DNA from: a virus | Strand: one strand, 5' to 3' | Virus record (IMG/VR): IMGVR_UViG_3300007509_000425 | Location: 1 to 37,778 of that record | Length of the DNA stretch: 37,778 bases | Part shown: one piece after another, positions 16,846-36,429 of the stretch | Layout of the letters: each line of letters starts with the position of its first letter | How positions within the stretch are numbered: position 1 is the stretch's first letter | Made by a program: the position numbers and the translations under genes | Notes under the pieces: generated by a model | Databases searched by the model: none | Told to the model about the DNA's origin: nothing | The model's input: only the letters and a program-made list of their open reading frames with translations

Positions 16846-17925
16846 ATGGCTATCAGAACGCCGCTGTTTCGTGATCTTACAGATTTGGGTGGAATCGAAG
16901 GCGCAAACAATGTTAAAGAATTTAATTCAACACAAATAGATTGGTTAATTTACCAAGTTTTAATGGCATGGGCTGGAAACCCATCTGTTAGTTTGACCGT
17001 AGTTGGTTCAGGAGGTACCTTCCTACCAGGCGGGATGGAAGACACCCGAGTGCAAGCCGGAGCCGGGAATACACATAGTAGTTCTTTTATTCCAGCGGGC
17101 AGCTGTGATCCAGTTTCGGATGTGACTGTAACTTATGAAACTATGAATTTAAATACAGCTACCCTTGGTGGTGTTGCTGATACTGATAATTTAAGATTTC
17201 CTGTTTATTTCCATGATGGTTTAAATAAAATTCTATTAGAGGATACTGGTGATTATGTATTATTGGAAGATGGTGGTGTAGTAAGATTAGAAGAAGATTC
17301 TCATCCATCTTTACAAGCTATGTCACAGCAAGATATGTTAGATACCTTTATATATCCAGCAATTGATAAACTAACAGCTGCTACAACAACAGACGAGCAA
17401 CAAGGTACACATTTTGTTAGCACTACAAGTTCAAGTATAGCAGGAAGTACAATTGTATCAGCGTCTCCAATATTCCGAAATACAATAGCGGATGCAGCTG
17501 CATATACCGCTTCTGGTATCCCAGAAACTCAAGATCAGCCTGATGCATCTAGTGTAGATTATTATTTGTGGACTATAGATCAGACAGGAACACCTCCAGC
17601 AAGCGCAGAAATTCCAGTATATGCTGTAGATTTAGCTCCTGGGTTTGTAGATATACAGGATTATGATAGTGTAGATTGGGAAACTATATTGTCTGAGCTA
17701 GTTAGATGGTGTGCTGTTAATGATACGAATGGGTATAAAATAACATATGAAATTAATCCTGCCTCAGGAGGAGTGGCAAGAGGCTCAACGATGATTAATA
17801 CCAAATTAGATTCATCTAGTTATAATACGTTACAGGTTGGGCCTGATGATTATCGAGCTCAAATATTTCCAGCAGGAACAGAAACTGCAATAGGCGATTA
17901 TACATTGAAAATTATTAAATTTTAA
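16846..17925 (+). CDS. Virion-associated protein of unknown type
   Basis: A 359-residue protein that I do not recognise as a named family. The start ATG at 16846 is preceded by GAGG with suitable spacing. The N-terminal part (residues 1-80) contains S-T-Q-I-D-W-L-I-Y-Q-V and a glycine-rich stretch. Around residues 128-150 there is an I-L-L-E-D-T-G-D-Y-V-L-L-E-D-G-G run, a short repeated L-L-E-D motif that I have seen often in marine phage virion proteins. The C-terminal part contains W-E-T-I-L-S-E-L-V-R-W-C and ends in beta-like sequence. It closes the first fibre cluster before the coiled-coil gene. Confidence 0.6.
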   Translation: MAIRTPLFRDLTDLGGIEGANNVKEFNSTQIDWLIYQVLMAWAGNPSVSLTVVGSGGTFLPGGMEDTRVQAGAGNTHSSSFIPAGSCDPVSDVTVTYETMNLNTATLGGVADTDNLRFPVYFHDGLNKILLEDTGDYVLLEDGGVVRLEEDSHPSLQAMSQQDMLDTFIYPAIDKLTAATTTDEQQGTHFVSTTSSSIAGSTIVSASPIFRNTIADAAAYTASGIPETQDQPDASSVDYYLWTIDQTGTPPASAEIPVYAVDLAPGFVDIQDYDSVDWETILSELVRWCAVNDTNGYKITYEINPASGGVARGSTMINTKLDSSSYNTLQVGPDDYRAQIFPAGTETAIGDYTLKIIKF

Positions 17926-17951: not shown

Positions 17952-19166
17952 ATGGCCATATTTACTGGCAAAATTGAAGATGCTTATTATATTAAGCCCG
18001 ATAAAAGCTTAATAGAAATTATATATTCTCAAGATTCAGATGTACACCAATCTCATGCTCTTTTCGTTGATTTTGACCATCCAGATTTTAAAGATTTGCT
18101 TGATGAAATTAGTCTAGACCAAATCGAAAAGAATACCAAACAACGACATAAAAAACAATCTAAAGTATATGGTAATGCTCTTAATTCAGCTGTGTCTGAA
18201 TACCTGGAAGTAGAATTAAAAAATCGAAAAGAGAAAATAGAAGAAGAGCTTAAATCTTTTAGAGAATCTTGGTTTAAAGAAAGAGAAGAAGAATATGAAA
18301 AGAAATATGGCGGATCTCTTGAAGAACAACACGTCCTATTGGAAAAACAACGTAAAGAATTGGAAAAACAACGTAAAGAATTAGAGAAGCTGTGGAAAAA
18401 AGCTGATACGTCTTGGGAAGAAGCTAAAAAAACTGAAGTTAAATTAAAACGTGCTTGGGATGAAGTGAAGGTAAGTGAAGATAACTCCAAAAAACTTTTT
18501 GAGCAAGCTGAAGCTTCTTGGAAAAATTCTCAAGATGTTGAAGAAAAACTAAAGGCATCTTGGGATGAAGCTGAAGCATCCAGGCAGGCCGCTACAGCGA
18601 TCAAAAAAGATATAGAAAGTGAGCATGAAAAAACTTTAGCTGATTTAGAAAAGGTGGCTTTAAATTTTGAAGCATATTTAACAGAACAAGCTCAAAAATT
18701 TAAAGAGTCTTTCAATGTTGATAAAGAATTATCTAAAGAGGATATAGATAAGCAATACCGGCAAATGATAGATCATTATGAAGAATTACAAACACAAACA
18801 AAAAATTTAAAAGAGAATATTGGTTTTAATTATCCTAATTACATAAATGACCTTTTATATAGAACCACTCACAAATTAATAGAAGGTCAAGAACAGAAAG
18901 ATATTGCTGGAGAAATTGTTAAAAATATAATTGAAAGTAATACTGTTGCTGCTTTAGCTTCACATAAAAAAATTGATTCTAATCTTTTAGAAGTTGTTAT
19001 GGATAATGAATCTGAAGCTGCTAAAGAAGAATTGTTTAAATTAAAATTAGCTATTTTTGAAATGGAAGAAGTGAAGAAGAATAAAAATAAAGAACAAAAA
19101 TCCAAAATCAGAAAAGCTCCAACCAAACTTAAAGTGCTTGCCGAATTTGATAAATTGAATGTATAA
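17952..19166 (+). CDS. Long coiled-coil protein with Trp-heptad 35-residue repeats
   Basis: The 404-residue product has three parts. Residues 1-65 form a compact domain (MAIFTGKIEDAYYI, then F-V-D-F-D-H-P-D-F-K-D-L-L). Residues 75-270 are almost continuous charged helix. It includes three leucine heptads (LEKQRKE twice exactly, residues 130-143) and two 35-residue repeats (147-181 and 182-216) in which aromatic residues sit on one heptad register: W148, W155, W169, F183, W190, W204. Residues 290-404 are a helical end with a basic tail. A strong ribosome site AGGAGA lies at 17938-17943. The gene overlaps the first glycosyltransferase by 8 bases, which ties it to the cassette. Function unknown; a fibre, tether or scaffold role would fit the shape. 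Confidence 0.75.
   Translation: MAIFTGKIEDAYYIKPDKSLIEIIYSQDSDVHQSHALFVDFDHPDFKDLLDEISLDQIEKNTKQRHKKQSKVYGNALNSAVSEYLEVELKNRKEKIEEELKSFRESWFKEREEEYEKKYGGSLEEQHVLLEKQRKELEKQRKELEKLWKKADTSWEEAKKTEVKLKRAWDEVKVSEDNSKKLFEQAEASWKNSQDVEEKLKASWDEAEASRQAATAIKKDIESEHEKTLADLEKVALNFEAYLTEQAQKFKESFNVDKELSKEDIDKQYRQMIDHYEELQTQTKNLKENIGFNYPNYINDLLYRTTHKLIEGQEQKDIAGEIVKNIIESNTVAALASHKKIDSNLLEVVMDNESEAAKEELFKLKLAIFEMEEVKKNKNKEQKSKIRKAPTKLKVLAEFDKLNV
18339..18380 (+). repeat. Perfect 21-base tandem duplication
   Basis: Two identical 21-base units at 18339-18359 and 18360-18380 encode LEKQRKE twice. The unit is exactly three times seven codon bases, that is one coiled-coil heptad, so copy-number change would lengthen the coil without breaking its register. 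Perfect identity suggests a recent duplication. Confidence 0.95.
18390..18599 (+). repeat. Two 35-residue coiled-coil repeats (protein level)
   Basis: Units of 105 bases at 18390-18494 and 18495-18599. Both follow L-W/F-x-x-A-x-x-S-W, then x-x-x-V-x-x-K-L-K-x-x-W-D-E. Thirty-five residues equal five heptads. The DNA copies have diverged. Confidence 0.8.
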
Positions 19167-19749
19167 TGTTTATTGTGTTAAGTGGGGTGATAAGTACAAC
19201 CGAGATTTTGTAACACGTTTAAAAGATAACGTAGAATCTAATACTACATTAGATATAAAATTTTGGTGTTATACCGACCAACCAGAAGAAGATTATGACA
19301 TACCTGTTAGGTATCCTTACTTGAGAGGTGTATGGCATAAACTAGCCCTTTTTGAATTTACTGGCCCGTCTATTTTTTTTGATTTAGATGTTGAGATAAA
19401 AAAGAATATAGATTTCTTGTTTACAGATTTTCAAGAATTAACACTGATAGATGCATCTAGATGGAAAGCTAAACGTGATGATTTGGATAAAAGCATTTTT
19501 CGTTTTAGATTAAATAATGATTCTAGAGTTAATAGTTCTTTTATGAGATGGAATGATTCTAGGTCTATCTTTAAATATTTCTTATCCAACCGTGATACTC
19601 ATTTGCGTCTGTATGAAGGTATAGATAGATTTATCTATAATGAAAATATATCATATAAACTTTTAAAAGATACTTATGTTGCTAGTTGGCAACAAGAAGA
19701 ATGGGTAGATGAAGCTTCTATCTTTTTATGGAACCAACGTTATGATTGA
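19159..19749 (+). CDS. Putative glycosyltransferase (DxD type)
   Basis: A 196-residue protein with the layout of small GT-A-like glycosyltransferases found in phages: an opening beta strand (YNVYCVKWG, residues 2-10), a helix, a second strand with F-W-C-Y-T-D-Q-P, a W-H-K-L-A-L-F motif (59-65) and a D-L-D metal-binding triad at 75-77 at the end of a hydrophobic strand (IFFDLDV). The C-terminal part has N-N-D-S-R-V-N-S-S-F-M-R-W, resembling the acceptor-side loop in this group. It would transfer a sugar from a nucleotide sugar; donor and acceptor are unknown. It overlaps the coiled-coil gene by 8 bases and the next gene by 8 bases. Confidence 0.75.
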   Translation: MYNVYCVKWGDKYNRDFVTRLKDNVESNTTLDIKFWCYTDQPEEDYDIPVRYPYLRGVWHKLALFEFTGPSIFFDLDVEIKKNIDFLFTDFQELTLIDASRWKAKRDDLDKSIFRFRLNNDSRVNSSFMRWNDSRSIFKYFLSNRDTHLRLYEGIDRFIYNENISYKLLKDTYVASWQQEEWVDEASIFLWNQRYD

Positions 19750-20401
19750 TTTTGAAAATGCAGCAATGTTACAAACATTAATAAGAAAATATCCGGGCCG
19801 AACATTAGATTTTCTTAATAGTTGTAATGAAACACAATGGTCGAGTAAGATGTGGTTAGCAGAAGAACTTAACTTGTATCTTTATAAACATGGTAAACGT
19901 GAAGGTTCCTATAACATTGCTTTGTTAGGTGGATGGTATGGTTTATTAGCCCATATTCTTATAGAGGACTTAGGAGTTGAAATAAAACAAATAGATTCTT
20001 TCGACATAGATTATATGGCAAAAAAGGTCGGTCGGACCTTTAATAATAAAGATATTTTAAAATTTTTTGAAGAGGATGTGGCCAACTGGATGATAGGAAA
20101 GCCGGCAAGTTCTGATGGAGTATCAAGTTCATCTTATGATATAATTATAAATACATCAACAGAACATATGGAACAAGAAACAGTAAATTATACAATAGAT
20201 ATAGCTGAGTCTGGAACTATATTTGTTTTTCAAAGTAATAATTTCTTTGGTTTGCAAGAACATATAAATTGTTCGGAATCAGAAGAAGAATTTAATAATA
20301 GATACCATTGGCACTTTGATGAATATGTTTCTTGGACAAAACCATGGCCTACTTCTATAGGAGACCATGAAAGATATATGTCATTTGGAATTAAGAAATG
20401 A
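19742..20401 (+). CDS. Putative class I SAM-dependent methyltransferase
   Basis: I start this gene at the ATG at 19742 (MIDFENAAM), which overlaps the previous stop by 8 bases, rather than at the longer frame from 19709, which would overlap by 41 bases. The 219-residue product has a Rossmann-like motif I (I-A-L-L-G-G-W-Y-G-L-L-A, about 59-70), an acidic strand end (IDSFDIDY, about 84-91) that should bind the SAM ribose, and a YDIIINTSTEHM segment (about 129-140) in the place of motif IV. The substrate is not evident. Its place between two glycosyltransferases suggests a sugar or glycan substrate, but this is inference. Confidence 0.68.
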   Translation: MIDFENAAMLQTLIRKYPGRTLDFLNSCNETQWSSKMWLAEELNLYLYKHGKREGSYNIALLGGWYGLLAHILIEDLGVEIKQIDSFDIDYMAKKVGRTFNNKDILKFFEEDVANWMIGKPASSDGVSSSSYDIIINTSTEHMEQETVNYTIDIAESGTIFVFQSNNFFGLQEHINCSESEEEFNNRYHWHFDEYVSWTKPWPTSIGDHERYMSFGIKK

Positions 20402-21222
20402 AACGGGTTGTGTTTTCAGTTTATATTGATTTGCCTGAATATGATGATGAATTATATGCTGCTGGCAATTTTGATAAAATTAAAGAGTGCCATGATATTA
20501 TATGGCGTAATCAGGAAGACTATGCATGGAAGTGTGATGCTAACTATGTTATAATTAACCATGATGCTCCGTGGTTTAACGAACTTTATCAAAAATTAAA
20601 AAATATAGATCCAGAAGTAACTCATTACCAAACAATTAATAATTTTAAAATACTATGTTTAGATAAACTTAAATATGATTACGACGAAATACTATATCTA
20701 GATTCTGATGTTGTAATAAATACGGATGAAAATATTTTTGAGGAGTTTGATTTATCTAACGGTATATGTTTAGCGCCACAAAAATTCCATTATCTTAAAG
20801 AATTTGAGGAAAAGAAATTACATTTTCTTCCCAACAGTAGACACCCCATAACAAAATATGTGATTACAAAGGAACTATTAGGTGTTGATGGGTTCAGGCC
20901 CGAAATATGGAATACTGGGATAATAGCTATCAATAGAGATCATGTAGATAAGTTAGATTATTTTGGAGAATACTTTGTGCCCATGTGTAAAGATTTGGTA
21001 TGGAAAAGAACTTTAGGCAAATATGGAAAGAATGATATTAGAGAAAGTTTCAGTATAAACAATGAATCTATAATGTCATACTTAACCTATAGTAAAAATA
21101 TAAATGTTCACATTATGGATGATAGTTGGCATCATATATATGACCAACAGAGAATAGGTGACCTTAATTCGGAGGCTCGTATGATTCATGTTATCAACAA
21201 AAGGTTTGAAGATGTATTATGA
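20398..21222 (+). CDS. Putative glycosyltransferase, GT8-like, paralogue of 21850-22716
   Basis: A 274-residue protein that opens with a strand (VVFSVYIDLP), has N-N-F-K-I-L-C-L-D-K before the catalytic region, and a Y-L-D-S-D-V-V-I metal-binding motif with D-S-D at 102-104. Later come W-N-T-G-I-I-A-I (about 170-178), N-N-E-S-I (about 221-225) and a closing W-H-H and V-I-N-K-R-F. These resemble GT8-type nucleotide-sugar transferases. The same landmarks occur in the gene at 21850, so the two are paralogues with the sulfotransferase gene between them. ATGA-type overlap with the gene before (20398-20401) and after (21219-21222) suggests coupled translation. Confidence 0.78.
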   Translation: MKRVVFSVYIDLPEYDDELYAAGNFDKIKECHDIIWRNQEDYAWKCDANYVIINHDAPWFNELYQKLKNIDPEVTHYQTINNFKILCLDKLKYDYDEILYLDSDVVINTDENIFEEFDLSNGICLAPQKFHYLKEFEEKKLHFLPNSRHPITKYVITKELLGVDGFRPEIWNTGIIAINRDHVDKLDYFGEYFVPMCKDLVWKRTLGKYGKNDIRESFSINNESIMSYLTYSKNINVHIMDDSWHHIYDQQRIGDLNSEARMIHVINKRFEDVL

Positions 21223-21872
21223 CTTACCAAATACTTTCACAATCCAGAACGGGATCTCATTATCTTTATACCTATACTTATAAAGATGTATATATTGGAG
21301 AATATTTTTTGCCAAATAAACGAGTAACTAAACTAGGTGTTACCGATAAAGAAATGTGGACTTGGCTTAGAAATGAAAAGAGTATAGGAAATCATCATTC
21401 TATTATAGTTAATATGAAGGACCGATTTGTAGCAGATGATCCTGATTTTATTGAAAAATTAATAGAATTTTTTAGAGGGTACCACATACTAACTATTAAA
21501 AGAAACCTTTGGGATATGTTTATAAGTTCTTGTTATGCGAATCAAACAAATACATTTCTCAACTACACGGGTAAAGAAATTATTATTCCTGATGATTTTA
21601 AAATAATAGTTAATGATGTTTCGGTGATAGATTTTATTGATAATTATAAAAGGTTGACAGGCTTTATAAACACCATTTTGGAAGAACAAGTACATACTAT
21701 TTTACAATATGAAGATTTAAATGAAACTTATTTGAATAAATTTTTTAGTGTCGATACACCTCATAGTAATTTTGAACCGATGAATATAGATTATGAAAAG
21801 TATATAGAAGATGTTGGTTATTGGAAAAAATATTTTGAAAATAAATTAAATGAAAAAGAAATTAATATATAG
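21219..21872 (+). CDS. Putative sulfotransferase (PAPS-dependent, P-loop type)
   Basis: The 217-residue product shows the three landmarks of PAPS-dependent sulfotransferases in the right order. Residues 7-16 (SQSRTGSHYL) follow a short strand and fit the 5'-phosphosulfate-binding loop. R95 and S103 (in R-N-L-W-D-M-F-I-S-S) have the eight-residue spacing of the 3'-phosphate-binding motif R-N-P-x-D-x-x-x-S. Y164-E165-D166-L167 matches the downstream Y-E-D-L element. It would move a sulfo group from PAPS to a hydroxyl or amine, here perhaps a sugar. It is short for the family, which usually has 250-300 residues. It sits between two paralogous glycosyltransferases with 4- and 23-base overlaps. 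Confidence 0.73.
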   Translation: MTYQILSQSRTGSHYLYTYTYKDVYIGEYFLPNKRVTKLGVTDKEMWTWLRNEKSIGNHHSIIVNMKDRFVADDPDFIEKLIEFFRGYHILTIKRNLWDMFISSCYANQTNTFLNYTGKEIIIPDDFKIIVNDVSVIDFIDNYKRLTGFINTILEEQVHTILQYEDLNETYLNKFFSVDTPHSNFEPMNIDYEKYIEDVGYWKKYFENKLNEKEINI

Positions 21873-22716
21873 TCTTTATATAGATATTCCTCCTAATGAG
21901 ATTGATGAACAGAAACCTTATGCATGGGATACTATTAATAAAAGTGAAAGAACTAGATTACAATTAAAGAAGTATGCTGAAAAATTAGAAGCTGCTCAGA
22001 TAGAATATGCTAAAGCTATCGGAGCAGATTATATTCTGTTTCGTGATGATAAAGAGTATAGAGAGTTTTATGATTGGTTACATAAACTTCAACCAACAAT
22101 GTCACACTATGACATTCTTAATTTTTATAAGATTTGGTTGTTTGTAGAAACAGCAAAGAAGTATGAGAAGGTGTTGTATTTGGATTTTGATGTAATACCA
22201 AATACCACTAAAGATTTTTTTGATGTATGGAACGTGGAAGATTCTGTTTGTCTAGCAGATTCAAAGGAGGATGCTCGTTTCAATTTGATGATTGGTAGAA
22301 TGGAAACACATGATAATAGAAATCCTATTTCCAAATATTGGAATGCTCATGCTATGTTAACCTATAGAGAATACGAAACTTTGGATGTTAAAGCATGGAA
22401 TACAGCAATCATGGGTGGTACAACAAATTCAATAGCAAACTTACATTATTTTGATGACTTTGAAAATTTAATGGAGTACATGAAAGAACTCCAAGATGAT
22501 GAATACAGTATGTATCCTATAGATATAAGACAGAACTTTGGTTTCGATAATGAAACTGTTTTTGGATATAGAGTTGTTGAAAATAATGTACCTATTACTC
22601 TTTTAGATTATTATTGGCACGCTAGAGTTTTAGATGTAGATGAAGAATTAGATCCCGATGTTAAATTATACCACATGATTAATAAACGTTTTGATATGTA
22701 TTGGCCTGATGAATAG
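21850..22716 (+). CDS. Putative glycosyltransferase, GT8-like, paralogue of 20398-21222
   Basis: A 288-residue protein with the same order of landmarks as the gene at 20398: opening strand Y-S-L-Y-I-D-I-P, S-H-Y-D-I-L-N-F-Y-K-I-W before the catalytic region, Y-L-D-F-D-V-I-P-N-T with D-F-D at 112-114, A-W-N-T-A-I (about 180), D-N-E-T-V near 232, a Y-Y-W-H motif and a closing H-M-I-N-K-R-F. The two probably arose by duplication and may use different donors or acceptors. The start lies 23 bases inside the sulfotransferase gene. Confidence 0.78.
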   Translation: MKKKLIYSLYIDIPPNEIDEQKPYAWDTINKSERTRLQLKKYAEKLEAAQIEYAKAIGADYILFRDDKEYREFYDWLHKLQPTMSHYDILNFYKIWLFVETAKKYEKVLYLDFDVIPNTTKDFFDVWNVEDSVCLADSKEDARFNLMIGRMETHDNRNPISKYWNAHAMLTYREYETLDVKAWNTAIMGGTTNSIANLHYFDDFENLMEYMKELQDDEYSMYPIDIRQNFGFDNETVFGYRVVENNVPITLLDYYWHARVLDVDEELDPDVKLYHMINKRFDMYWPDE

Positions 22717-23341
22717 ATTTATATATTTTTTTAATAACCATGAAGGTATGAAATCTTGGAAGTGTGCTGAAAAATTACAAATTTATCACGACCATTTTAA
22801 AAAATTTTATGATACAAATGTTCGTGTAATGGAATTAGGTATACACCATGGCGGTTCTTTAGAAATGTGGAAATCATGTTTTGGTCCTAAAAGCAAAATT
22901 TACGGAATAGATAAAGAAGAAGAATGTCGAGCTTTGAATGGAGATTGTCAAATAGATATACTTATAGGTGATATTACAGATAGTTCTTTTAGAGATTCGA
23001 TAATAGGTAAAGTTGATATTTTTATAGACGACGGCGGACATAAAGTATCACAACAAATAGAAACGATGAAATGGATTTTACCTCTTTTAAGTCCAAAAGG
23101 TGTTTATCTTTGTGAAGATATAAAAGAGAAAGATATTATTTTAAAAGCCGCAAAAGAGTTTAATGAAATCTACTCACTATCAATATATAGATGTGATGTT
23201 ATAGTTATAGAGAAGGGAAGAAATATAGAAAAGAATGTTGGTTATAAAATACCAAAATTGGGAGGCTGCTTTACTGGCAAAAAGTATTTGCCTGGGTTGG
23301 AAACTTTTGAAGAATATGCGGACAAAAATAATAATAGTTAG
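22709..23341 (+). CDS. SAM-dependent O-methyltransferase, MycE/TylF-like
   Basis: Started at the ATG at 22709 (MNRFIYFF), which overlaps the previous stop by 8 bases; the frame continues upstream to 22691, but that start would overlap more. The 210-residue product has I-Y-H-D-H-F, then a SAM motif I (V-M-E-L-G-I-H-H-G-G-S-L-E-M-W, about 46-60), I-Y-G-I-D-K with the ribose-binding acid, and D-I-F-I-D-D-G-G-H-K (about 112-121), which holds the metal-binding acids of this family. Known relatives of this fold group methylate sugar hydroxyls (mycinamicin and tylosin sugars), so sugar O-methylation is the best guess. It overlaps the next gene by 26 bases. Confidence 0.75.
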   Translation: MNRFIYFFNNHEGMKSWKCAEKLQIYHDHFKKFYDTNVRVMELGIHHGGSLEMWKSCFGPKSKIYGIDKEEECRALNGDCQIDILIGDITDSSFRDSIIGKVDIFIDDGGHKVSQQIETMKWILPLLSPKGVYLCEDIKEKDIILKAAKEFNEIYSLSIYRCDVIVIEKGRNIEKNVGYKIPKLGGCFTGKKYLPGLETFEEYADKNNNS

Positions 23342-23999
23342 AATAGGTAATAAGTATGGTCCAGAATATGAAACCTATCTTGAAAGTAAATTAACAGATT
23401 ATGAAATTGTTTGGATAAAAGAGCCTATACAAAAGGACATATGGTATCAATGGAATAAAATGGCGGCCATGAATCTAGATATTGATGAACCTGTTTGTGT
23501 TATGGACATTGATATGCTTTTGGTGAATAATTATAAAGAAGTCTTTGACTATCCAATAGAACACGGTCAGTTTCTTGCTATGCCTAGTTGGTGGGGTGGA
23601 GCTCTTAAAGGCGACTATAAGATTAATGGTGGGTTCTTTAAATACTATCCTAAAGATTGTAAATATATCTACAAAGCTTTTATGATGGATCCTAGACACT
23701 GGCAATCTTGGTATATTAAAAACGGAACAACAATAGGGCCAGTAAACGGCGAACAATATTTTGTAGAAGATTTTGTAAATAAAAGATTAGAACTTATTAC
23801 CTTTCCAGATTCTTGGGTTACTAGATGGTGTGATGAAGGTGTTGAATGGCAAACGAATATTACTAAAAAATATAATAAACAAACGGGCAATGATTATGTT
23901 TATTTGGGAGGAGAATTTCATCCAGATATAAAGATGGTACACTTCACCCGATCCGAAAACAAACCTCATAATTGGAAAGATTATAGATATTTCATTTAA
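23316..23999 (+). CDS. Putative glycosyltransferase (DxD type), fourth in the cassette
   Basis: Started at the ATG at 23316 (MRTKIIIVRIGNKYG), where a clear opening strand begins; the longer frame from 23235 would run through the end of the methyltransferase gene and looks non-coding there. The 227-residue product has W-Y-Q-W-N-K-M (about 43-49) and V-C-V-M-D-I-D-M-L-L with D-I-D at 64-66, the usual metal site. Later motifs: S-W-W-G-G-A, I-N-G-G-F-F-K-Y (about 97-104), W-V-T-R-W, and a closing M-V-H-F-T-R-S with H-N-W, typical for this group. It converges with the minus-strand radical SAM gene, overlapping it by 8 bases. Confidence 0.75.
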   Translation: MRTKIIIVRIGNKYGPEYETYLESKLTDYEIVWIKEPIQKDIWYQWNKMAAMNLDIDEPVCVMDIDMLLVNNYKEVFDYPIEHGQFLAMPSWWGGALKGDYKINGGFFKYYPKDCKYIYKAFMMDPRHWQSWYIKNGTTIGPVNGEQYFVEDFVNKRLELITFPDSWVTRWCDEGVEWQTNITKKYNKQTGNDYVYLGGEFHPDIKMVHFTRSENKPHNWKDYRYFI

Positions 24000-24972
24000 C
24001 TATTTTATTTGTTACTAAATGTTGTTGGTTATCAGGCACCCTATCTCTACAATATCTTTTGCAACTAGCGGGAGCATTTTCTGGATCAGATATTAATACT
24101 TTAAAAAAATTTATCCATTCATCAGAAAATATAATTTCTTCTATAGTATCTACATTTTCTATTTTTAAATGATCTTGAAATAACTCCTTTATATCCTGAA
24201 TTTCTTGAATACTGAGAATTGCTGGATCTTTCCAACAACATGGAAGAAGATATCCAGTTGCTGACTGACCCAGCCCCTTTCTATCCAAACTTCCTGATTT
24301 TTTCTCTAGTTTTTCGATGCACTTTGGATCTATTTTTTTTATTTCTTTTCTTTCTCCAAAAGAATCTTTTTGTTTTGGTTTTAAATGTATAGTTTCTTTA
24401 TTCCATCTTGAGGATCGCAACTCCATAAACCAAACACCAATGTCGGTAGCCATTTGTCTGGCTTCATCTACATGATTTTCATTATAATTAAAAATTATAT
24501 ATTGCCATGTAGTTTTTAATCCCATTTCAGCACATAACTTCATTCTTTCAAATTCTTTTATACCATCTTGATTAACTCTATACTTATGGCTTTCTTCTGG
24601 AAGACCATCTATACCAAACCACCATTTTGCCTTTGGATTTGCTTCATAACATTTTTTATGCCAAGATAAAGGTTTGTGAGAAACAGCAGTGTGAACTTGG
24701 ACCCGAATTCCTTTTTCATAAGTAAGTTTTAAAAATTCAGGTAAATTTGGGTGTAATATTGGATCTGATATTTGACCACAGAAAGAGATGCCTACGAAAA
24801 AGTCTATAATTTTTTTAAAACATTCTATAGACATATAATCACCCGGCACTTTTATTTTGTGTTTATCATGTTGTTTTCTAGCACAACCACCACACTTCAA
24901 AGTACATTTGGCACATATATCTAAATTTATTGTATTTCTAGATAGTGCAGCATACAATTTTTCATTATTCAT
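23992..24972 (-). CDS. Radical SAM enzyme, downstream gene of a minus-strand pair
   Basis: I start it at the ATG at 24972 (MNNEKLYAALS), which forms an ATGA overlap with the stop of the upstream minus-strand gene; a start 7 codons earlier is possible. The 326-residue product has the CxxxCxxC iron-sulfur motif of radical SAM enzymes as C-T-L-K-C-G-G-C (about residues 25-32), G-D-Y-M-S-I-E-C-F following, and an L-H-P-N-L-P-E-F-L helix start. Towards the C-terminus, a P-C-C-W pair and a C-K-R-Y-C pair could bind an auxiliary cluster, as in SPASM/Twitch enzymes. Reaction and substrate are unknown. Its end overlaps the end of the convergent glycosyltransferase by 8 bases. Confidence 0.8.
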   Translation of the reverse strand: MNNEKLYAALSRNTINLDICAKCTLKCGGCARKQHDKHKIKVPGDYMSIECFKKIIDFFVGISFCGQISDPILHPNLPEFLKLTYEKGIRVQVHTAVSHKPLSWHKKCYEANPKAKWWFGIDGLPEESHKYRVNQDGIKEFERMKLCAEMGLKTTWQYIIFNYNENHVDEARQMATDIGVWFMELRSSRWNKETIHLKPKQKDSFGERKEIKKIDPKCIEKLEKKSGSLDRKGLGQSATGYLLPCCWKDPAILSIQEIQDIKELFQDHLKIENVDTIEEIIFSDEWINFFKVLISDPENAPASCKRYCRDRVPDNQQHLVTNKIVK

Positions 24973-26138
24973 AAAGCGTCCAAATCTGGCCATAATTTTG
25001 AGATATCTGTTTTTCTAATTTTATTAAGCTCCGATATATATTGTTTCATTTTTTCTAGGCCAGATTCATGAGGTTCATTTTCAAGTTCTTTTGCTAATAT
25101 AATTTCATTATCTTTAAAACGTTCTATTAATTCTTTTTTATTATTTGAATTTCTTGGCGCTAAGAAAGAAGGGGTATATGCAATTGAACAAAATTTTAAT
25201 TTTAAATCAAAATGATCTTTATAATATTTTATTATTTCGTCATAATCATTTATATTTAATATAGAAGCTGTGCAATGTAAAAAGTTTATCCACTCTCTAT
25301 AAAGTTTTAAATTAGATTCAAATTTTTTAACATCCATTGGGTATCTTATCCAAGCTAATTTGTCACCATAATGGTCACAAGACACGGCAAGATTAACCTT
25401 TTTAAATTTTAATATTACATCAGAAGTAAATTTTGTATAGTCCATAGAAGTTAAATTCGTATCAAAACCAACTTCAATTTTACTAGCATCTTCATCGGAA
25501 ATTTTATCTAAAAAATCCCACATTCTAGGCAATAAAAATGGTTCACCTCCAGTAAATTTTATTGAAGAAACTCTGTCTATATTATCAAGAACGTCTTTTA
25601 TAGTTTTATCGTATTGTTCTTTTTTTATGGGTATGTCGTCATAGCCAAAATACTTATTTTTTAATAATGATAATTCTTTTCTTCTTGTTGAAGAATTTTG
25701 TGGGTGACACATATAACAAGATAGATTACAATGAGTACCAAATATTCTTAATTTTAATTCTATATCTCTAGGTTCAGTTTGTATTTTATTAAACTCTCTA
25801 AAGGATATTCCTACATTACTAATTATATTTTCGTTAGTTTTTGGACCAATAATGCAACTAGTCGCTCGATGCTTTGGGACCCAACGGAGATGCTCAGGAA
25901 GCATTTTTCCACTTTCCATGGAAGTACACAATCCGCATTGGGGAATATCTTCACCATTTAACATTTTCTTTCTTACTTCATCCATTTCTGGTGAAAGATA
26001 ATATTTAAAGGGAGTTGTTACTGTAGAATTAAATATAGGTTTATCTTCAAATGGAAAAGCATGACAACAAAGCCTATATCTACCTCTGCTGTCACAATAG
26101 ATATGGTCGAAAGCCCTTTTACAATAACTTTTATTCAT
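24969..26138 (-). CDS. Radical SAM enzyme with Twitch/SPASM-like cysteines, upstream gene of the pair
   Basis: A 389-residue protein. The N-terminal 75 residues hold several cysteines (Y-C-K-R-A-F, L-C-C-H, then Q-C-G-L-C) that look like an auxiliary cluster region placed before the core, a layout I recall from phage radical SAM proteins. The core begins near residue 128 (I-E-L-K-L-R-I-F-G-T-H) with C-N-L-S-C-Y-M-C, the CxxxCxxC motif, and has the F-T-G-G-E-P motif (about 191-196) that contacts SAM. It has no visible homology to classical housekeeping radical SAM enzymes. A minus-strand late promoter box ends 9 bases before the ATG, so the mRNA would be almost leaderless. It is co-transcribed with the gene downstream. 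Confidence 0.83.
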   Translation of the reverse strand: MNKSYCKRAFDHIYCDSRGRYRLCCHAFPFEDKPIFNSTVTTPFKYYLSPEMDEVRKKMLNGEDIPQCGLCTSMESGKMLPEHLRWVPKHRATSCIIGPKTNENIISNVGISFREFNKIQTEPRDIELKLRIFGTHCNLSCYMCHPQNSSTRRKELSLLKNKYFGYDDIPIKKEQYDKTIKDVLDNIDRVSSIKFTGGEPFLLPRMWDFLDKISDEDASKIEVGFDTNLTSMDYTKFTSDVILKFKKVNLAVSCDHYGDKLAWIRYPMDVKKFESNLKLYREWINFLHCTASILNINDYDEIIKYYKDHFDLKLKFCSIAYTPSFLAPRNSNNKKELIERFKDNEIILAKELENEPHESGLEKMKQYISELNKIRKTDISKLWPDLDAL

Positions 26139-26140
26139 AA

Positions 26141-26148
26141 TATAAATA
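26141..26148 (+). promoter_or_regulatory. T4-type late promoter box facing right
   Basis: Perfect TATAAATA upstream of the GNAT gene. It overlaps by two bases the mirror box at 26147-26154 on the other strand, forming one 14-base palindrome. Transcription would start near 26154-26155, leaving only 2-3 bases before a GTG start at 26157. Confidence 0.6.
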
Positions 26149-26154
26149 TTTATA
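26147..26154 (-). promoter_or_regulatory. T4-type late promoter box facing left
   Basis: Perfect TATAAATA on the minus strand, serving the radical SAM pair. Predicted start near 26141, so about 3 bases of leader before the ATG at 26138. The two face-to-face boxes cannot both be bound at once if they share the overlap. Confidence 0.6.
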
Positions 26155-26156
26155 TA

Positions 26157-26606
26157 GTGAATTATAAAATAAGGACAATAGAATTTGAAGATATATTACC
26201 ATTATGGGAATTATTACATCCTGGTAGAGAACATAAAAAATATGTCAAAATGGTTTACAAAAATAAAAGTGCAAAGTGGACTTTATCTGAAAATGAATTA
26301 AATATAACTTTTTTTGGTGCTTATGTAAACGATAAACTTTGTGGTACTCTCAGTGTATATTTAACTCCCAACAATCTATATCGTGTCCGATCATTTTATG
26401 TTTTGTCAGAATATAGACGTAAAGGTTTTGGCAAATTGTTATTGGAACAAACAATACAAACAGCAAAAGATTTGGGTGGTAATGGTGTGTGGGGTTACCC
26501 TAATAATATAGCACTACCTTTATATATTCGAGCTGGATTTACTAAAGAGTCTGAATTTGAACAGGCCGATTGGGGAGTAAATTGTTATGTCTTTCGTGAA
26601 TTATAG
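26157..26606 (+). CDS. GNAT-family acetyltransferase
   Basis: The frame is open back to 26061, but that part lies inside the minus-strand radical SAM gene. The GTG at 26157 (then NYKIRTIEFEDILPLW) fits the usual GNAT N-terminus and lies just after the late promoter box. The 149-residue product has the acetyl-CoA-binding motif A: V-R-S-F-Y-V-L-S-E-Y-R-R-K-G-F-G-K-L-L-L near residues 78-97, with the R-R-K-G-F-G pyrophosphate loop, and then A-L-P-L-Y-I-R-A-G-F, the typical C-terminal Y/AGF element. It would acetylate an amine; the acceptor may be an amino sugar or protein lysine. It overlaps the next gene by 20 bases. Start choice is the weak point. Confidence 0.75.
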   Translation: MNYKIRTIEFEDILPLWELLHPGREHKKYVKMVYKNKSAKWTLSENELNITFFGAYVNDKLCGTLSVYLTPNNLYRVRSFYVLSEYRRKGFGKLLLEQTIQTAKDLGGNGVWGYPNNIALPLYIRAGFTKESEFEQADWGVNCYVFREL

Positions 26607-27576
26607 AAATACATTTGTATGGGGTTATAATGATATTCCATTTTCATTTCGTAAAAAGGATAGTGATAAATTTTTTGTAAGGTATGGAAGATTAACTAGA
26701 GAACCATTACCTTGGCGTGAAGAATGTATAGCAACAGCAAAACTTATATATGATGAAGCTAATGGAGAAATACCCACTATCTATTTTAGTGGAGGTATGG
26801 ACTCACAAATAGTAGCAGAATCATTTAGATTATCGGGTGTGCCTTTTAAAATAGTTATTATTAGGTTGACTGATTCTTGGAATTGGCATGATATGAAATT
26901 TGCTGTAGAGTGGTGTGAAGAATATAATATAGAACCACTTATTCTAGATTTAGATTATAGAAAATTTTTAGAAAATGAAGCATGGGATATTGGATCATTA
27001 ATACAATCTTGGACTCCTCAATTTTGTATTCTTCCATGGGCTATGGAACTAGTTGATGGTTTTCCTGTGATTGGATATGGAGAAGCTGATTTACATAGAA
27101 ATAAAAAAATAGCAACCAAATCTTGGAATATAGATACAGAAATATTAAGATGTCAAGAACGATATTTGAGACATAAAAATAGAAATGGTGCTGGGTCGTT
27201 TTTTAAATATACACCGGAGTTAAAGATTAGTCAATTTTTAGATTGGGAAACAATTAAATTTGCTAATAATATAGAACATACTGGTGTTGCTATGCAGTAT
27301 AATAAAAATGAAATGTGTATACCACATTTTCCTAATTTAAAACCACGTCCTAAAATTGTAAGTTGGTGCCGTAAGGGAAGACCGTATACAGACTATACTG
27401 GATTTGAATATATTCCAAAACCAGAGATGCAGCTGGAACATGAATTGCGAACCGAATTCCAATCTCATTGGGGAAATGTTCAAGAACTTTGGACAGATTA
27501 TGATGAACAAGTGAAAACTTTAACAATAGGGTATGAACACTTATATGAAAATTTCCAGAATAAACGAATTGATTGA
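26587..27576 (+). CDS. PP-loop ATP pyrophosphatase family protein
   Basis: The 329-residue protein carries S-G-G-M-D-S at residues 68-73 after a hydrophobic strand (PTIYF), the PP-loop motif of N-type ATP pyrophosphatases such as asparagine synthetase, NAD synthetase and QueC-like enzymes. These adenylate a carbonyl or carboxylate and then add nitrogen or sulfur. Nothing before the loop looks like a glutaminase domain: residues 1-60 lack a Cys2 start. After the PP-loop there are I-L-D-L-D-Y-R-K-F, W-T-P-Q-F-C-I-L-P-W and Y-G-E-A-D segments that I cannot assign to a known subfamily. With sugar genes around it, an amidation or thiolation step on a glycan or peptide is possible. It overlaps genes on both sides. 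Confidence 0.7.
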   Translation: MSFVNYRNTFVWGYNDIPFSFRKKDSDKFFVRYGRLTREPLPWREECIATAKLIYDEANGEIPTIYFSGGMDSQIVAESFRLSGVPFKIVIIRLTDSWNWHDMKFAVEWCEEYNIEPLILDLDYRKFLENEAWDIGSLIQSWTPQFCILPWAMELVDGFPVIGYGEADLHRNKKIATKSWNIDTEILRCQERYLRHKNRNGAGSFFKYTPELKISQFLDWETIKFANNIEHTGVAMQYNKNEMCIPHFPNLKPRPKIVSWCRKGRPYTDYTGFEYIPKPEMQLEHELRTEFQSHWGNVQELWTDYDEQVKTLTIGYEHLYENFQNKRID

Positions 27577-28195
27577 TTGGTTGGATAAAAATCCAATTGG
27601 TTTATCTTGGATGTCACCACAAACAGAAGTAAGACCATCATTAATTCCTAATGCCGGCAATGGTAGATTTGCTACAGAAGATATAGATGCTGGAGAAACA
27701 GTTGTATTAGCAGGTGGTATAGTACTTACAGTTGAAGAATATAACGCTGTGAAATCAAGATGGAACTTTGCAACTGGTGGACAGATTGACCCTAAGCATA
27801 TGCTATTACAAATGGGTACGGATAAATATGCCGCTACTATCAATCATACTTGTAAACCTAATTGCTATGTTAGTGGACAAATGTGTATTAAAACACTAAC
27901 AGATATTAAAAAGGATGAGGAACTATCTGTAGACTATGGTACTATACATGACGATGATGTTCTGCAATTTGAAAATTGTCAATGTGGATTTGTTGAATGT
28001 AGAACATACGTTACTGGTAAAGATTGGCTCTCATCAGATTTTCAGAAAGCTAACCGATTTACTTTACATTTATTTGAAAAAATAAAAGGCACTAACGACC
28101 AAGCTAAACTAGAACAACTTAAAAGATTACAGAAAATAGATTTAAATAAATCAGAGTTATTAAAAAAAGAATATGAGGCCCTAATCAATGATTGA
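27533..28195 (+). CDS. SET-domain protein (putative lysine methyltransferase) with post-SET cysteines
   Basis: The 220-residue product shows the SET signature. R-P-S-L-I-P-N-A-G-N-G-R-F-A-T (about 34-48) matches the opening G-x-G-x-F-A strand pair and is followed by D-I-x-A-G-E-T-V-V. I-N-H-T-C-K-P-N (103-110) is the N-H-x-C-x-P-N SAM and pseudoknot motif; E-L-S-V-D-Y-G (130-136) holds the catalytic tyrosine region. C149-x-C151-G-x-x-x-C156-R is a post-SET zinc motif that with C107 would bind zinc. The last 50 residues are helical and charged. Eukaryotic-type SET proteins methylate lysines; phage or bacterial ones may have other targets. A second start four codons later (27545) is possible. 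It overlaps its neighbours by 44 and 8 bases. Confidence 0.82.
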   Translation: MNTYMKISRINELIDWLDKNPIGLSWMSPQTEVRPSLIPNAGNGRFATEDIDAGETVVLAGGIVLTVEEYNAVKSRWNFATGGQIDPKHMLLQMGTDKYAATINHTCKPNCYVSGQMCIKTLTDIKKDEELSVDYGTIHDDDVLQFENCQCGFVECRTYVTGKDWLSSDFQKANRFTLHLFEKIKGTNDQAKLEQLKRLQKIDLNKSELLKKEYEALIND

Positions 28196-30197
28196 TATAT
28201 TATATAGTAATCCATGTTCATATACTTCTTTTGAATATCTACCATATATACATGGAATTCTTAAAGGGTCTGTCGATGATGTTCCTGGTTTGGGTGATGA
28301 AGTTAATTGGTATAAACCGATATACTATAGGAAGAACCATATTAAATTATCTAGATATGATTTAAAAAATCTAAACATTTTTGCTTGTTCTGTTTATACC
28401 TGGAACAGGGAAACTAATTATAATCTAGCAGCCGAAATAAAAAAAGAAAACCCGAATTGTCTTGTCGTTGTAGGAGGACCAGAACCTTATTACAGAGACA
28501 TGGAGTTTTTCTATAAAAATCCACAAATAGATATTGTTGTTAAACATGAAGGTGAGTTTTCCTTTCCTAGAATAGTTGAAGAAGTTGTATTAGGTACTAT
28601 GGATTTTGAGGATATTCCTGGATTGGTTTTAAAGAATGGTGGCGATACTGGTATGCCAATATTAAAAAAAGAGTTTACTAAATCATATTTCCATGATTAT
28701 GCTGAAGAATTTATGGAACTTGCACATGATAGTAAAAAATTTTGTCACAGCTCAAACAATACGGCTCTCATGCTAGAAAGTGATAGGGGTTGTCCATTTG
28801 GTTGTACATTCTGCGATTGGGGTAGTTCTACTCTACAAAAAATTAGAAAGATTCCTTTAGAAATAGTATATAAAGATATAGAGTTTGCTGGAGAAGCTGG
28901 CATTGGATTCATAGATGTTATTAATGCTAACTTTGGAATTTTTCCCAGAGATATAAACATAACATCTAAAATGGCACAAGTTAAAGAAAGGAGTGGTTAT
29001 CCACCAAGAATTTTTTTACAACATACTAAAACTAAATTAGACCATACAAAAGAAATATTAAAAATTGCTAGAGACGCTGAGATGTTAACCACTTGTGTAC
29101 TGCCTTTACAATCAACATCCGATATTGTATTAAAAGCCATTGACAGAAAAAATATTCCTCATCAAGAATTAATTAAGTTAGCAAAAGAAACTGGTAATCA
29201 CAATATACCTATTGAATCTTGTTTTATAATGGGATTGCCAGGAGATAATTATGATAGATGGCAACAAAACTTTTTTGATGTAATGAATGAAGGTATACTA
29301 GAAAACTTTATAGTATTTCATTTCCAAATTTTACCAAATTCACCAGCCAATGAACCAGCTTATAAAAAGAAATGGCAGATAGAAACAATAGAACGACACC
29401 CACAACAACGACGCCGAAAGAAAGATAATCCAAAAGAGGTAACCTCGTCAGGCGAATTTGTTATATCTACTTCTACATATAGTAGATTAGATTATATAGA
29501 TATATATAATTTTTCAGCTATGATAAGAAGTTTTCATGGATTTGGATTTACACGATACATTTCAATTTATTTAAAGCTCACACACAATATATTATATGAA
29601 GATTTTTATAGAGATTTTCATAATAACTTTTTTATGAATCCAAAATATCCCACAGTATATTCTATATATTCAAAAATAAATGAACATATCAATAACTTTA
29701 TATTTGATTTAGAAAATGATTGGTTTTGGGAATATGAAGTTAAAGAAGTACCAACATTAAAACCTATGTACGATGTTGAAGAATATATTACAATTTTATT
29801 ATTACTCAACTTTGCAGAATATAGAAAAGAATTAAAACAATATATGCGAAATACTTATGACATAAAAAACTTATATAGTATAATGAAATTTAATCTAGAT
29901 TTAATAGTAACTCCTGATTATGATTATACTAAAGGGTTTGTATTTACCATGGAACATGATTGGCCAGAGTATTTTAAAATAGCAAAATCTAATTGGTGGA
30001 GCGAACCAATGGATGAACCTAAGAGAATAAAGATTTATAAAGACATATTGCAAACGACAGGTAATCATGCATCTGTGTTATCTAAATTTAAATGGTTAAA
30101 TTATAGTGGAGACAAGAGAACCGAAACATATATTAGAGATGTAATAGCAACAACATTTAAAAGAGGAGATCCATTGTTATTTGATGTGTTTGAATAG
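28188..30197 (+). CDS. B12-binding-domain radical SAM enzyme
   Basis: A 669-residue protein. Residues 60-135 look like a cobalamin-binding Rossmann domain of the type that leads many radical SAM enzymes (A-C-S-V-Y-T-W-N, L-V-V-V-G-G-P-E-P, H-E-G-E), but the DxHxxG motif for base-off binding is not visible. The radical SAM core starts near residue 200 with D-R-G-C-P-F-G-C-T-F-C-D-W, giving CxxxCxxC. L-P-L-Q-S-T-S-D near 305 and F-I-M-G-L-P-G-D near 345 match conserved core strands. The last 250 residues are an aromatic-rich helical extension I cannot assign. Substrate unknown; B12 radical SAM enzymes often methylate unactivated carbon or phosphinate. It ends opposite the minus-strand ORF at 30177. 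Confidence 0.82.
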   Translation: MIDILYSNPCSYTSFEYLPYIHGILKGSVDDVPGLGDEVNWYKPIYYRKNHIKLSRYDLKNLNIFACSVYTWNRETNYNLAAEIKKENPNCLVVVGGPEPYYRDMEFFYKNPQIDIVVKHEGEFSFPRIVEEVVLGTMDFEDIPGLVLKNGGDTGMPILKKEFTKSYFHDYAEEFMELAHDSKKFCHSSNNTALMLESDRGCPFGCTFCDWGSSTLQKIRKIPLEIVYKDIEFAGEAGIGFIDVINANFGIFPRDINITSKMAQVKERSGYPPRIFLQHTKTKLDHTKEILKIARDAEMLTTCVLPLQSTSDIVLKAIDRKNIPHQELIKLAKETGNHNIPIESCFIMGLPGDNYDRWQQNFFDVMNEGILENFIVFHFQILPNSPANEPAYKKKWQIETIERHPQQRRRKKDNPKEVTSSGEFVISTSTYSRLDYIDIYNFSAMIRSFHGFGFTRYISIYLKLTHNILYEDFYRDFHNNFFMNPKYPTVYSIYSKINEHINNFIFDLENDWFWEYEVKEVPTLKPMYDVEEYITILLLLNFAEYRKELKQYMRNTYDIKNLYSIMKFNLDLIVTPDYDYTKGFVFTMEHDWPEYFKIAKSNWWSEPMDEPKRIKIYKDILQTTGNHASVLSKFKWLNYSGDKRTETYIRDVIATTFKRGDPLLFDVFE

Positions 30198-30329
30198 TAT
30201 TGTTAATTTTGGTCCTTTCTTGCGAGATTGTCTATCTGGTGGCCATCCATTATGATGTTCGGCCGAACTGGCCGACATCATTATTATAAGTTTCTTTTTT
30301 ACACGCTTAGGTTGTTTTAATTTCTGCAT
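30177..30329 (-). CDS. 50-residue very basic protein, convergent with the B12 radical SAM gene
   Basis: Reading the minus strand gives an ATG at 30329 and a stop at 30177-30179, too short for simple ORF cut-offs. GAGGA on the minus strand (30338-30342) lies exactly 8 bases before this ATG, and a perfect TATAAATA late box (30365-30372, minus strand) lies 36 bases before it, the same layout as the gp8 promoter and leader. An in-frame ATG at 30344 would add five residues but has no ribosome site. The product is rich in Lys and Arg (14 of 50) with only two acidic residues: MQKLKQPKRVKKKL, a short hydrophobic patch, then A-E-H-H-N-G-W-P-P-D-R-Q-S-R-K-K-G. No family recognised; nucleic-acid binding or interaction with an acidic partner would fit. 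Confidence 0.6.
   Translation of the reverse strand: MQKLKQPKRVKKKLIIMMSASSAEHHNGWPPDRQSRKKGPKLTILFKHIK
30252..30281. repeat. GC-rich inverted repeat (12 bp stem, one bulge, 5-base loop)
   Basis: Left arm 30252-30264 and right arm 30270-30281 pair as ATGATG, a bulged T and CGGCC on one side, with a 5-base loop. It lies 55 bases after the stop of the B12 radical SAM gene. No T-run follows at once; a TTTCTTTTTT tract lies at 30291-30300. It may stop or stabilise the plus-strand mRNA, but it also codes residues of the minus-strand ORF. Confidence 0.55.
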
Positions 30330-30337
30330 GGAATAGT

Positions 30338-30342
30338 TCCTC
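30338..30342 (-). promoter_or_regulatory. Ribosome binding site GAGGA for the 50-residue ORF
   Basis: GAGGA on the minus strand with 8 bases to the ATG at 30329. This spacing favours 30329 over the in-frame ATG at 30344, which lies upstream of or on the site itself. Confidence 0.6.
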
Positions 30343-30364
30343 ATCCATTATATTATAATAAAAA

Positions 30365-30372
30365 TATTTATA
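30365..30372 (-). promoter_or_regulatory. T4-type late promoter box facing left
   Basis: Perfect TATAAATA on the minus strand. Predicted transcript start near 30358, with a leader of about 28 bases containing GAGGA, leading to the 50-residue ORF. It shares two bases with the box facing right at 30371. Confidence 0.62.
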
Positions 30373-30378
30373 TAAATA
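30371..30378 (+). promoter_or_regulatory. T4-type late promoter box facing right (distal)
   Basis: Perfect TATAAATA, back to back with the box at 30365-30372. It would give a leader of about 77 bases to the gene at 30462. It may be a second promoter for the fibre cluster or only a by-product of the AT-rich palindrome. Confidence 0.5.
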
Positions 30379-30461: not shown

Positions 30462-30842
30462 ATGGCAACAGTTATAAAAGTAAAGCGTAACGAAACCGCA
30501 AGTACCCCACCAGGAACCAGTGATTTAGAGGTGGGTGAAATTGCAATCAACACCGCTGATCAGAAACTTTTTATTAAAGATAGTTCTAATGCAATTAAAG
30601 AAATTGGTGGTGCAGTCGGTGTTACTTTGCACGATGTAACAACAACAAACAATTCAACATCTAATGATATTCACTTAGACGGTTCTAATATTGTCTTTGA
30701 AGGATCAACACCCGATGCAGCTGAAACGACTCTTACTGCTGCTGATCCGGATGTTGATAGAACTATCACCTTACCAAATTCAAATGGTACTTTAGCAACA
30801 GATGGAGACATACTAGCCTTCTCGGTAGTATTTGGTGGATAA
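30462..30842 (+). CDS. Short tail-fibre-like protein
   Basis: A 126-residue protein. The N-terminal 45 residues (V-I-K-V-K-R-N-E-T-A, then L-E-V-G-E-I-A-I-N-T-A-D-Q-K-L-F-I-K-D) match the opening element of many phage fibre proteins, similar to the N-terminal intertwined part of the Mtd/receptor-binding type. Residues 80-126 (R-T-I-T-L-P-N-S-N-G-T-L-A-T) are another frequent fibre motif. So it looks like a fibre stripped to its two ends. It is the first gene after the late promoter at 30425 and starts the second fibre cluster. Confidence 0.72.
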   Translation: MATVIKVKRNETASTPPGTSDLEVGEIAINTADQKLFIKDSSNAIKEIGGAVGVTLHDVTTTNNSTSNDIHLDGSNIVFEGSTPDAAETTLTAADPDVDRTITLPNSNGTLATDGDILAFSVVFGG

Positions 30843-30845
30843 TAT

Positions 30846-31612: not shown

Positions 31613-31616
31613 AACA

Positions 31617-36401: not shown

Positions 36402-36429
36402 TATAAAGGATTAGTATAGAGGAACAAAA

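Follow-up and report, generated by a model that had tools for sequence, protein, structure and literature searches.

The enzyme cassette and its genomic setting

The window considered here, the 37,778-base stretch that makes up IMG/VR virus record IMGVR_UViG_3300007509_000425, is by its gene content a partial genome of a T4-like phage with relatives infecting Pelagibacter and OM43, and it carries a cassette of thirteen enzyme-type genes at positions 19159-30197. All thirteen open reading frames (ORFs) that an earlier note on this DNA had placed there are present, tightly packed amid fibre genes, with two of them on the minus strand (23992-24993 and 24969-26138). In the list below, SAM stands for S-adenosylmethionine and G003 for a diverged relative of 96,473 bases, IMGVR_UViG_3300010883_007299.

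19159-19749, plus: GT1, putative GT-A glycosyltransferase; DLD motif invariant in 7 aligned rows
19709-20401, plus: MT1, predicted class I SAM methyltransferase fold (AlphaFold model and Foldseek)
20398-21222, plus: GT2, GT8-like glycosyltransferase (PF01501 E 4.5e-4, below the Pfam cut-off)
21219-21872, plus: ST, putative sulfotransferase, motif only; 84% in G003
21850-22716, plus: GT3, GT8-like glycosyltransferase (PF01501 E 1.4e-6)
22691-23341, plus: MT2, methyltransferase of Methyltransf_24 type with a TTG start (PF13578, 26.7 bits, cut-off 26.3)
23319-23999, plus: GT4, putative GT-A glycosyltransferase; DID motif invariant in aligned relatives
23992-24993, minus: rSAM1, radical SAM protein of a family common in IMG/VR, with CX3CX2C at residue 30
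24969-26138, minus: rSAM2, N-twitch radical SAM protein, CX3CX2C at residue 137 (NF033640)
26157-26606, plus: GNAT acetyltransferase with a GTG start (PF00583 E 1.1e-13)
26587-27576, plus: PPloop, PP-loop ATP pyrophosphatase or asparagine-synthase-like protein (6-row profile; relatives L252 and L106)
27533-28195, plus: SET-domain methyltransferase (PF00856 E 2.1e-13; KMT2A and BurB matches)
28188-30197, plus: B12rSAM, B12-dependent radical SAM protein related to TokK and CysS (TokK E 2.7e-66)

The following features flank the cassette:

7247-14245, plus: VrlC-like baseplate protein; its best segment is 35-39% to the VrlC proteins of HTVC008M, Mosig, Melnitz and G003
16846-17925, plus: f5, fibre-like, candidate acceptor, linked to the enzyme core by co-occurrence in VrlC loci
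17952-19166, plus: cc, coiled-coil protein (coiled coil read by eye), candidate acceptor or chaperone
30462-37778, plus: downstream fibre module

The gp6-like baseplate protein is 48.1% identical to that of the Pelagibacter phage Mosig, 47.5% to that of the OM43 phage Melnitz and 45% to that of HTVC008M, and is thus about equidistant from the SAR11 phage and the OM43 phage. A second record, G001, overlaps the window with 5 mismatches in 16,270 bases and adds 39,691 bases, in which further fibre genes are followed by neck, terminase, sheath, portal and capsid genes; fibre genes were recognised by where they lie, by their sequence, and by matches in Mosig and Melnitz. The distance from VrlC, which forms the left border, to the neck genes (from position 15878 of the extension) is about 39 kb and includes the cassette. 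By this placement, and by a content that varies relative to the flanking modules and includes fibre genes and glycosyltransferases, the interval is the "host recognition cluster" (HRC) of pelagimyophages, described in the available text of Zaragoza-Solas et al. (2020, PMC7029224) as a hypervariable island of fibre genes, GT8 glycosyltransferases, and radical SAM cassettes. The breadth of chemistry, which the earlier note had considered out of the ordinary, is not exceptional, since the setting is a known one and Mosig holds about 20 enzymes there: among its genes 72-96, 18 have enzyme-type names and two more match GT2/3 and GT4.

Support for the gene products

Most of the gene labels proposed in the earlier note were borne out by profiles or models, although some scores lie under cut-offs; this applies to GT2, GT3, MT1, MT2, the three radical SAM proteins, GNAT, SET, and PPloop. 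Of the four DxD glycosyltransferases, GT2 and GT3 are GT8-like, while the assignment of GT1 and GT4 rests on their conserved DxD motifs. Searches of Pfam, PHROGs, and NCBIfam and a structural search linked GT1 to no known family or structure; GT4 weakly resembles UGGT (E 0.07). For ST, neither Pfam, PHROGs, and NCBIfam nor the PDB sequences gave a match, and the putative sulfotransferase label is based on an SRTGSHYL motif. Two starts were moved, as judged from G003: that of GT4 from 23235 to 23319 and that of GNAT from 26061 to the GTG at 26157. Structure prediction, also suggested in the earlier note, gave a methyltransferase fold for MT1 (pLDDT 75.6; Foldseek match to NodS, 3ofj, with a TM-score of 0.71 on target length) and a poor model for PPloop (pLDDT 45.8), whose 6-row profile matches NAD synthetase, TtuA, and QueC with E-values of 5e-5 to 2e-4. 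All three radical SAM proteins match PF04055; rSAM1 does so with 20.7 bits (cut-off 29.5) and matches phrog_21308 with E 8e-17; rSAM2 passes NCBIfam NF033640 with 219.8 bits (cut-off 170) over positions 1-396 of 398.

None of the thirteen cassette proteins, nor cc, has a transmembrane-like segment (a hydropathy segment over 1.6). Of the 71 ORFs in the window plus its extension, a single one of 97 aa has three such stretches and five have one; neither a flippase nor a polymerase is seen among them. The cc protein found no family match in Pfam and PHROGs profile searches. In PADLOC, which was run on 7 proteins, B12rSAM matches the candidate PDC-M51A (E 2.9e-16, 57 bits) in its B12/radical-SAM region, rSAM1 and rSAM2 weakly match prokaryotic viperin models, and MT2 matches the mads_2 model.

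Exchange of the cassette as a block

Cassette DNA occurs in four other IMG/VR records, three of which are the same phage (two of them start within the cassette), the fourth being G003. The evidence for block exchange comes from this one pair of phages, the window phage and G003. Eleven of the 13 genes are present in unchanged order in G003, and in all 11 the rate of synonymous substitution (dS) exceeds that of nonsynonymous substitution (dN). When identity to G003 is taken in bins of 250 bases, 36 of the 45 bins from 19,000 to 30,249 lie at 80-100%, 3 at 70-74%, and 6 are gaps, against 48-80% in the 33 bins outside. This raised-identity block of about 19.0-30.25 kb coincides almost exactly with the interval singled out in the earlier note, and its left edge falls inside the 3' end of cc. 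The downstream fibre module lies outside it (dS 1.4-2.7 for g1-g3, the three genes computed).

The flanking and backbone genes for which dS was computable, a set that does not include the portal gene, have values of 1.0-2.7, that is, saturated synonymous sites. Within the block, dS is 0.25-0.93 from GT1 to GNAT (for GNAT itself 0.29, at 84% protein identity) and 0.09-0.11 for PPloop, SET, and B12rSAM. These low values rule out that the last three are merely slow-evolving. MT2 and rSAM2 are missing at this place in G003, the alignment gaps starting and stopping at gene edges, and by this pattern each is cleanly gained or lost as a single gene. We read the whole as the transfer of a discrete block in at least two layers. 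Outside the block, protein identity between the two phages is 74-92% for neck-to-capsid genes and 37-54% on the baseplate side.

A search of 50,697 phage records with the cassette DNA gave no match. Five proteins were searched in the same records: PPloop and SET had no match, B12rSAM had two partial matches at 24-26%, rSAM2 had one partial match, and rSAM1 matched Mosig and three Campylobacter phage records.

A recurring core linked to f5 and cc

A 3-row alignment of rSAM1 retrieved 133 IMG/VR stretches, the best 80 of which gave 79 loci; 75 of these, many of them short, were analysed after exclusion of the window phage and its known relatives. By tblastn, MT1 is found in 27 of the 75, GT1 in 22, GT4 in 21, and GT2 and GT3 in 20 (the same genes), followed by rSAM2 in 16, B12rSAM in 3, GNAT in 2 (8 by phmmer), and PPloop in 1; ST, SET, and MT2 are found in none of the 75. 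At least two of the four core classes are present in 29 loci when each ORF is assigned to one family, and the order GT1, MT1, GT2/3, GT4 on one strand is kept in 27 of them, the two exceptions, L219 and L220, being near-copies of each other. Wherever cc, f5, or VrlC is visible in a core locus, it lies on the opposite strand to the core in 21 of 22 cases.

The linkage of the core to f5 and cc was counted in the 42 VrlC loci that extend 8 kb or more past that gene: 11 have both the core and f5/cc, 30 have neither, and in the remaining one f5 and cc occur with GT2/3 as the sole core class. With near-copies collapsed, the 36 VrlC clusters comprise 7 with both, 0 with the core alone, 1 with f5/cc and a partial core, and 28 with neither (Fisher p 1e-6). 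At the level of sequence, the core GT1-MT1-GT2/3-GT4 is shown to recur in order with rSAM1, tied to f5 and cc. PPloop, SET, B12rSAM, ST, and MT2, on the other hand, appear nearly confined to this lineage.

These counts do not support one fixed pathway of thirteen genes, the joint route suggested in the earlier note, given the genes missing from G003 and the three found at no rSAM1 locus. Its expectation that related phages would gain and lose the genes as a block held in part: there is a discrete exchanged block and a co-inherited core, but the tailoring genes are exchanged independently. As an aside on the rSAM1 family, the homologue in Mosig is divided between two annotated genes, 84 and 85, in different frames (L011:20426-21392).

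Late-promoter-like elements

Three promoter-like features were found at or beside the cassette:

26141-26154, both strands: TATAAATATTTATA, overlapping opposed T4-type late -10 elements, for rSAM2-rSAM1 (minus) and GNAT-PPloop-SET-B12rSAM (plus)
30365-30378, opposed: TATTTATATAAATA, second opposed late-promoter pair, arranged differently, before the next fibre module
30425: single TATAAATA before the next fibre genes

Four copies of the palindrome ATAAATATTTAT are present in 1.31 Mb (80 sequences, counting near-copies), and all 4 lie in divergent junctions, where 0.02 would be expected: between rSAM2 and GNAT in the window, between rSAM1 and GNAT in G003, between genes 81 and 82 in Mosig, and in L227. 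For comparison, ten palindromes made up of the same letters were each counted 0-4 times. We take the palindrome to be two overlapping late elements of the kind familiar from T4 biology; with the T4-like spacing that we assume, the predicted transcripts would be nearly leaderless. From its position at the internal divergent start we infer that the right half and the rSAM pair are expressed late; transcription of the fibre genes may continue into the left half. The claim that the cassette is made late in infection is in this way probably correct.

The B12 radical SAM protein

Residues 14-597 of the 669 in B12rSAM align with TokK, and the protein also aligns with CysS. It has a PF04055 domain, a PF02310 domain just under the cut-off (30.9 bits, cut-off 32.1), a CX3CX2C motif at residue 202, and a Trp72 aligned with TokK Trp76, which we take to be the Trp below cobalamin. 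This near full-length homology, together with the two sequence features, is that of a methyltransferase of the TokK/KedN5 kind. The cut-off for the KedN5 subfamily proper (NF033712) is missed, with 153 against 700 bits, and B12rSAM is for that reason kept out of it. It is related to the B12-dependent radical C-methyltransferases and putatively one of them. A quick tree of 82 rows drawn from 198 proteins tentatively places the proteins of the window and G003, with support 83, alongside five bacterial and three further viral proteins and outside a clade of 53 rows that are all viral; it contains several long branches.

Genomes from the family of a Pelagibacteraceae metagenome-assembled genome (MAG) served as the sample of a candidate host family. 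In that family, MT1 is found in 2 of 79 genomes and rSAM1 in 4 of 79, all weakly except for one MT1 match, which is probably phage because its contig carries NodU-like, nitroreductase-like, and GT3 genes. With both genes so rare there, a recent host origin of the core is not supported. B12-binding domains have matches in 33 of 78 family genomes, 21 of them over the cut-off, and G008 (L351-L353), of a Pelagibacteraceae-type family, holds several B12-binding radical SAM genes among nonulosonate/O-antigen-like genes (labels by eye). The use of cobalamin in this MAG family is plausible on these matches.

Relatives of B12rSAM are common in viral contigs, with at least 594 stretches in IMG/VR, and an rSAM2-like gene occurs in 27 of 76 B12rSAM loci (L033-L108). 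The viral contig L033 has two PP-loop-type genes (4394-5422 and 13011-13988) close to a GNAT gene and one for a TokK-like protein, reminiscent of the cassette's right half. L115 (NZHE01000029, titled as a Rickettsiales MAG) and L363 are contigs binned as bacterial that resemble phage, the match and coordinates of L115 being identical to those of the IMG/VR locus L034. At the level of titles and abstract openings, and with partial coverage, the literature yielded no TokK-like B12 radical SAM enzyme in phages.

Proposed function and alternative explanations

The reading that we prefer, and hold to be evenly balanced between right and wrong, is a soluble, late, exchangeable module tailoring a glycan on virion fibres in a pelagimyophage-like HRC. 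Late in infection, the core glycosyltransferases would use host nucleotide sugars in the cytoplasm and build a short glycan, to be placed on the co-inherited fibre and coiled-coil proteins f5 and cc. MT1, MT2, GNAT, the radical SAM enzymes, PPloop, SET, and the B12 radical methylase would then tailor the glycan or its attachment site, and swaps of tailoring genes would alter the surface chemistry of the virion, and hence receptor binding or recognition, with the core route unchanged. We infer both the acceptor on the virion fibre and the order of the steps. Decoration of a virion protein in the cytoplasm is favoured by the soluble enzymes, the late-type control, the position among fibre genes, and the f5/cc linkage. 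A glycan product is favoured by Mosig, in which the homologues of MT1, GT2/3, GT4, and rSAM1 are accompanied by a DegT aminotransferase and a carbamoyltransferase, members of families acting on sugars. The fuller version, a phage-built fibre glycan or glycopeptide made by a conserved core and traded tailoring modules and including B12-dependent radical C-methylation of a virion component, is rather doubtful.

Several observations weigh against the fibre-glycan reading. Of the 11 loci in which the core is linked to f5/cc, 10 were ascertained via the rSAM1 scan; the VrlC scan by itself finds the core in 1 of 32 loci and f5 and cc in 2 of 32, and the linkage may be physical hitch-hiking. Mosig has f5, but neither cc nor GT1 was found in the stretch searched. 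The part of PPloop, SET, B12rSAM, ST, and MT2 in the pathway is conjectural, as they are almost unique to this lineage. On the side of control, ATAAATATTTAT was judged by placement as well as by count and the control palindromes by count; the window and G003 are related and the sites in Mosig and L227 are alike, which leaves about two independent cases. An enrichment of TATAAATA in the window was rejected (8 seen, 8.1 expected), so that only the placement of the palindrome counts. In addition, GT8 genes of this sort are read in the accessible part of the published account (PMC7029224) as modifiers of the host O-chain.

This last interpretation leads to the main competitor, in which the enzymes remodel host lipopolysaccharide or its O-chain and block superinfection (Zaragoza-Solas et al. 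2020); we consider it unlikely, yet it is the strongest of the alternatives. It also gains from the genome of a host-type family in which, by eye, several B12-radical-SAM genes lie inside a surface-glycan-like island with sugar-nucleotide and nonulosonate-type genes (labels likewise by eye), a further point against a product confined to the virion. However, the cassette encodes no membrane protein and hence no flippase, polymerase, or ligase, its late-type control adjoins structural genes, and few of the host-family genomes sampled have the core enzymes. That there is no joint pathway, and that a recombination hot spot has collected unrelated cargo genes, is improbable: the single gain or loss of MT2 and rSAM2, the two identity layers within the block, and the rearranged orientation in relatives are what it would predict, whereas the core order kept in 27 of 29 loci, block edges at enzyme genes, the f5/cc linkage, and dS above dN are not.

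Least probable of all, in our estimation, is a RiPP-like peptide (a ribosomally synthesized and post-translationally modified peptide) or a TokK-like small molecule, for which the three radical SAM enzymes, PPloop, SET, GNAT, and the methylases would be the makers. The closest solved relative of B12rSAM is TokK, which belongs to a carbapenem pathway, and a Nostoc relative lies near a putative leader-peptide gene (read by eye). A candidate precursor lies beside B12rSAM:

30180-30344, minus: possible 55-aa ORF, weak; frame open in G003 too, 75% identity

The frame is open in both phages with a dN/dS of 0.40-0.49 between window and G003, a weak constraint, but the ORF overlaps a terminator-like hairpin at 30253-30280, a viral scan found it only in already known phages (4 loci), and the glycosyltransferase core recurs without the right half.

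Comparison with known systems

The closest known system is the pelagimyophage HRC, with which the window has in common, going by the available text of PMC7029224, the position between VrlC and the neck, the fibre genes, the GT8 glycosyltransferases, and radical SAM cassettes varying between relatives. That text describes gradual divergence by added cassettes, whereas here a block with sharp edges has been exchanged; the conserved core order, the f5/cc linkage, the late-type palindrome, and the TokK-like B12 enzyme go beyond what it describes. The evidence for exchange by modules, for conservation of a core, and for divergent control of late type is sharper here than in that portion of the account. 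Mosig (EXVC030M, MT647606), a cultured phage whose record gives Candidatus Pelagibacter ubique HTCC1062 as host, shares the interval, MT1, GT2/GT3, GT4, rSAM1, the fibre homologues, and the divergent palindrome, but differs in having about 20 enzymes including aminotransferases, a carbamoyltransferase, and oxygenases, and the 48.5-kb stretch searched gave no match to GT1, ST, MT2, rSAM2, GNAT, PPloop, SET, or B12rSAM.

TokK, CysS, and KedN5 have in common with B12rSAM near full-length homology, a B12-binding domain, CX3CX2C, and a Trp at the position of TokK Trp76; B12rSAM differs in lying far under the KedN5 cut-off, and no antibiotic cluster is seen around it. The Gtr serotype-conversion clusters of phages are similar in being phage glycosyltransferase genes that may alter surface sugars. 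Gtr clusters use membrane proteins, and a membrane flippase or glucosyltransferase of that kind is absent here, as no hydropathy segment exceeds 1.6 in the 14 proteins counting cc. Chloroviruses, according to the part of PMC4691112 available, have virus-encoded glycosyltransferases, one with a methyltransferase-like domain, and a glycosylated major capsid protein; they are viruses of eukaryotes and offer a comparison of working principle only.

SAR11 phages are described as ubiquitous and highly abundant in the accessible text of PMC10504331, and the functions of HRC enzymes have so far only been inferred in the published accounts, as far as these were available. Given the edges of the block, a core linked to f5/cc, and a palindrome of late type, it becomes testable which virion protein is modified, at what stage, and by what chemistry. 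If the TokK-like methylase works, some of the phage's chemistry would depend on vitamin B12.

An ORF beyond the window

Among the fibre genes of the G001 extension, past the end of the window, an ORF at 8414-9610 resembles 5-aminolevulinate synthase (labelled by eye). It has no match in G003, and copies of this synthase in phages have already been published, as stated in the available part of PMC11480375.

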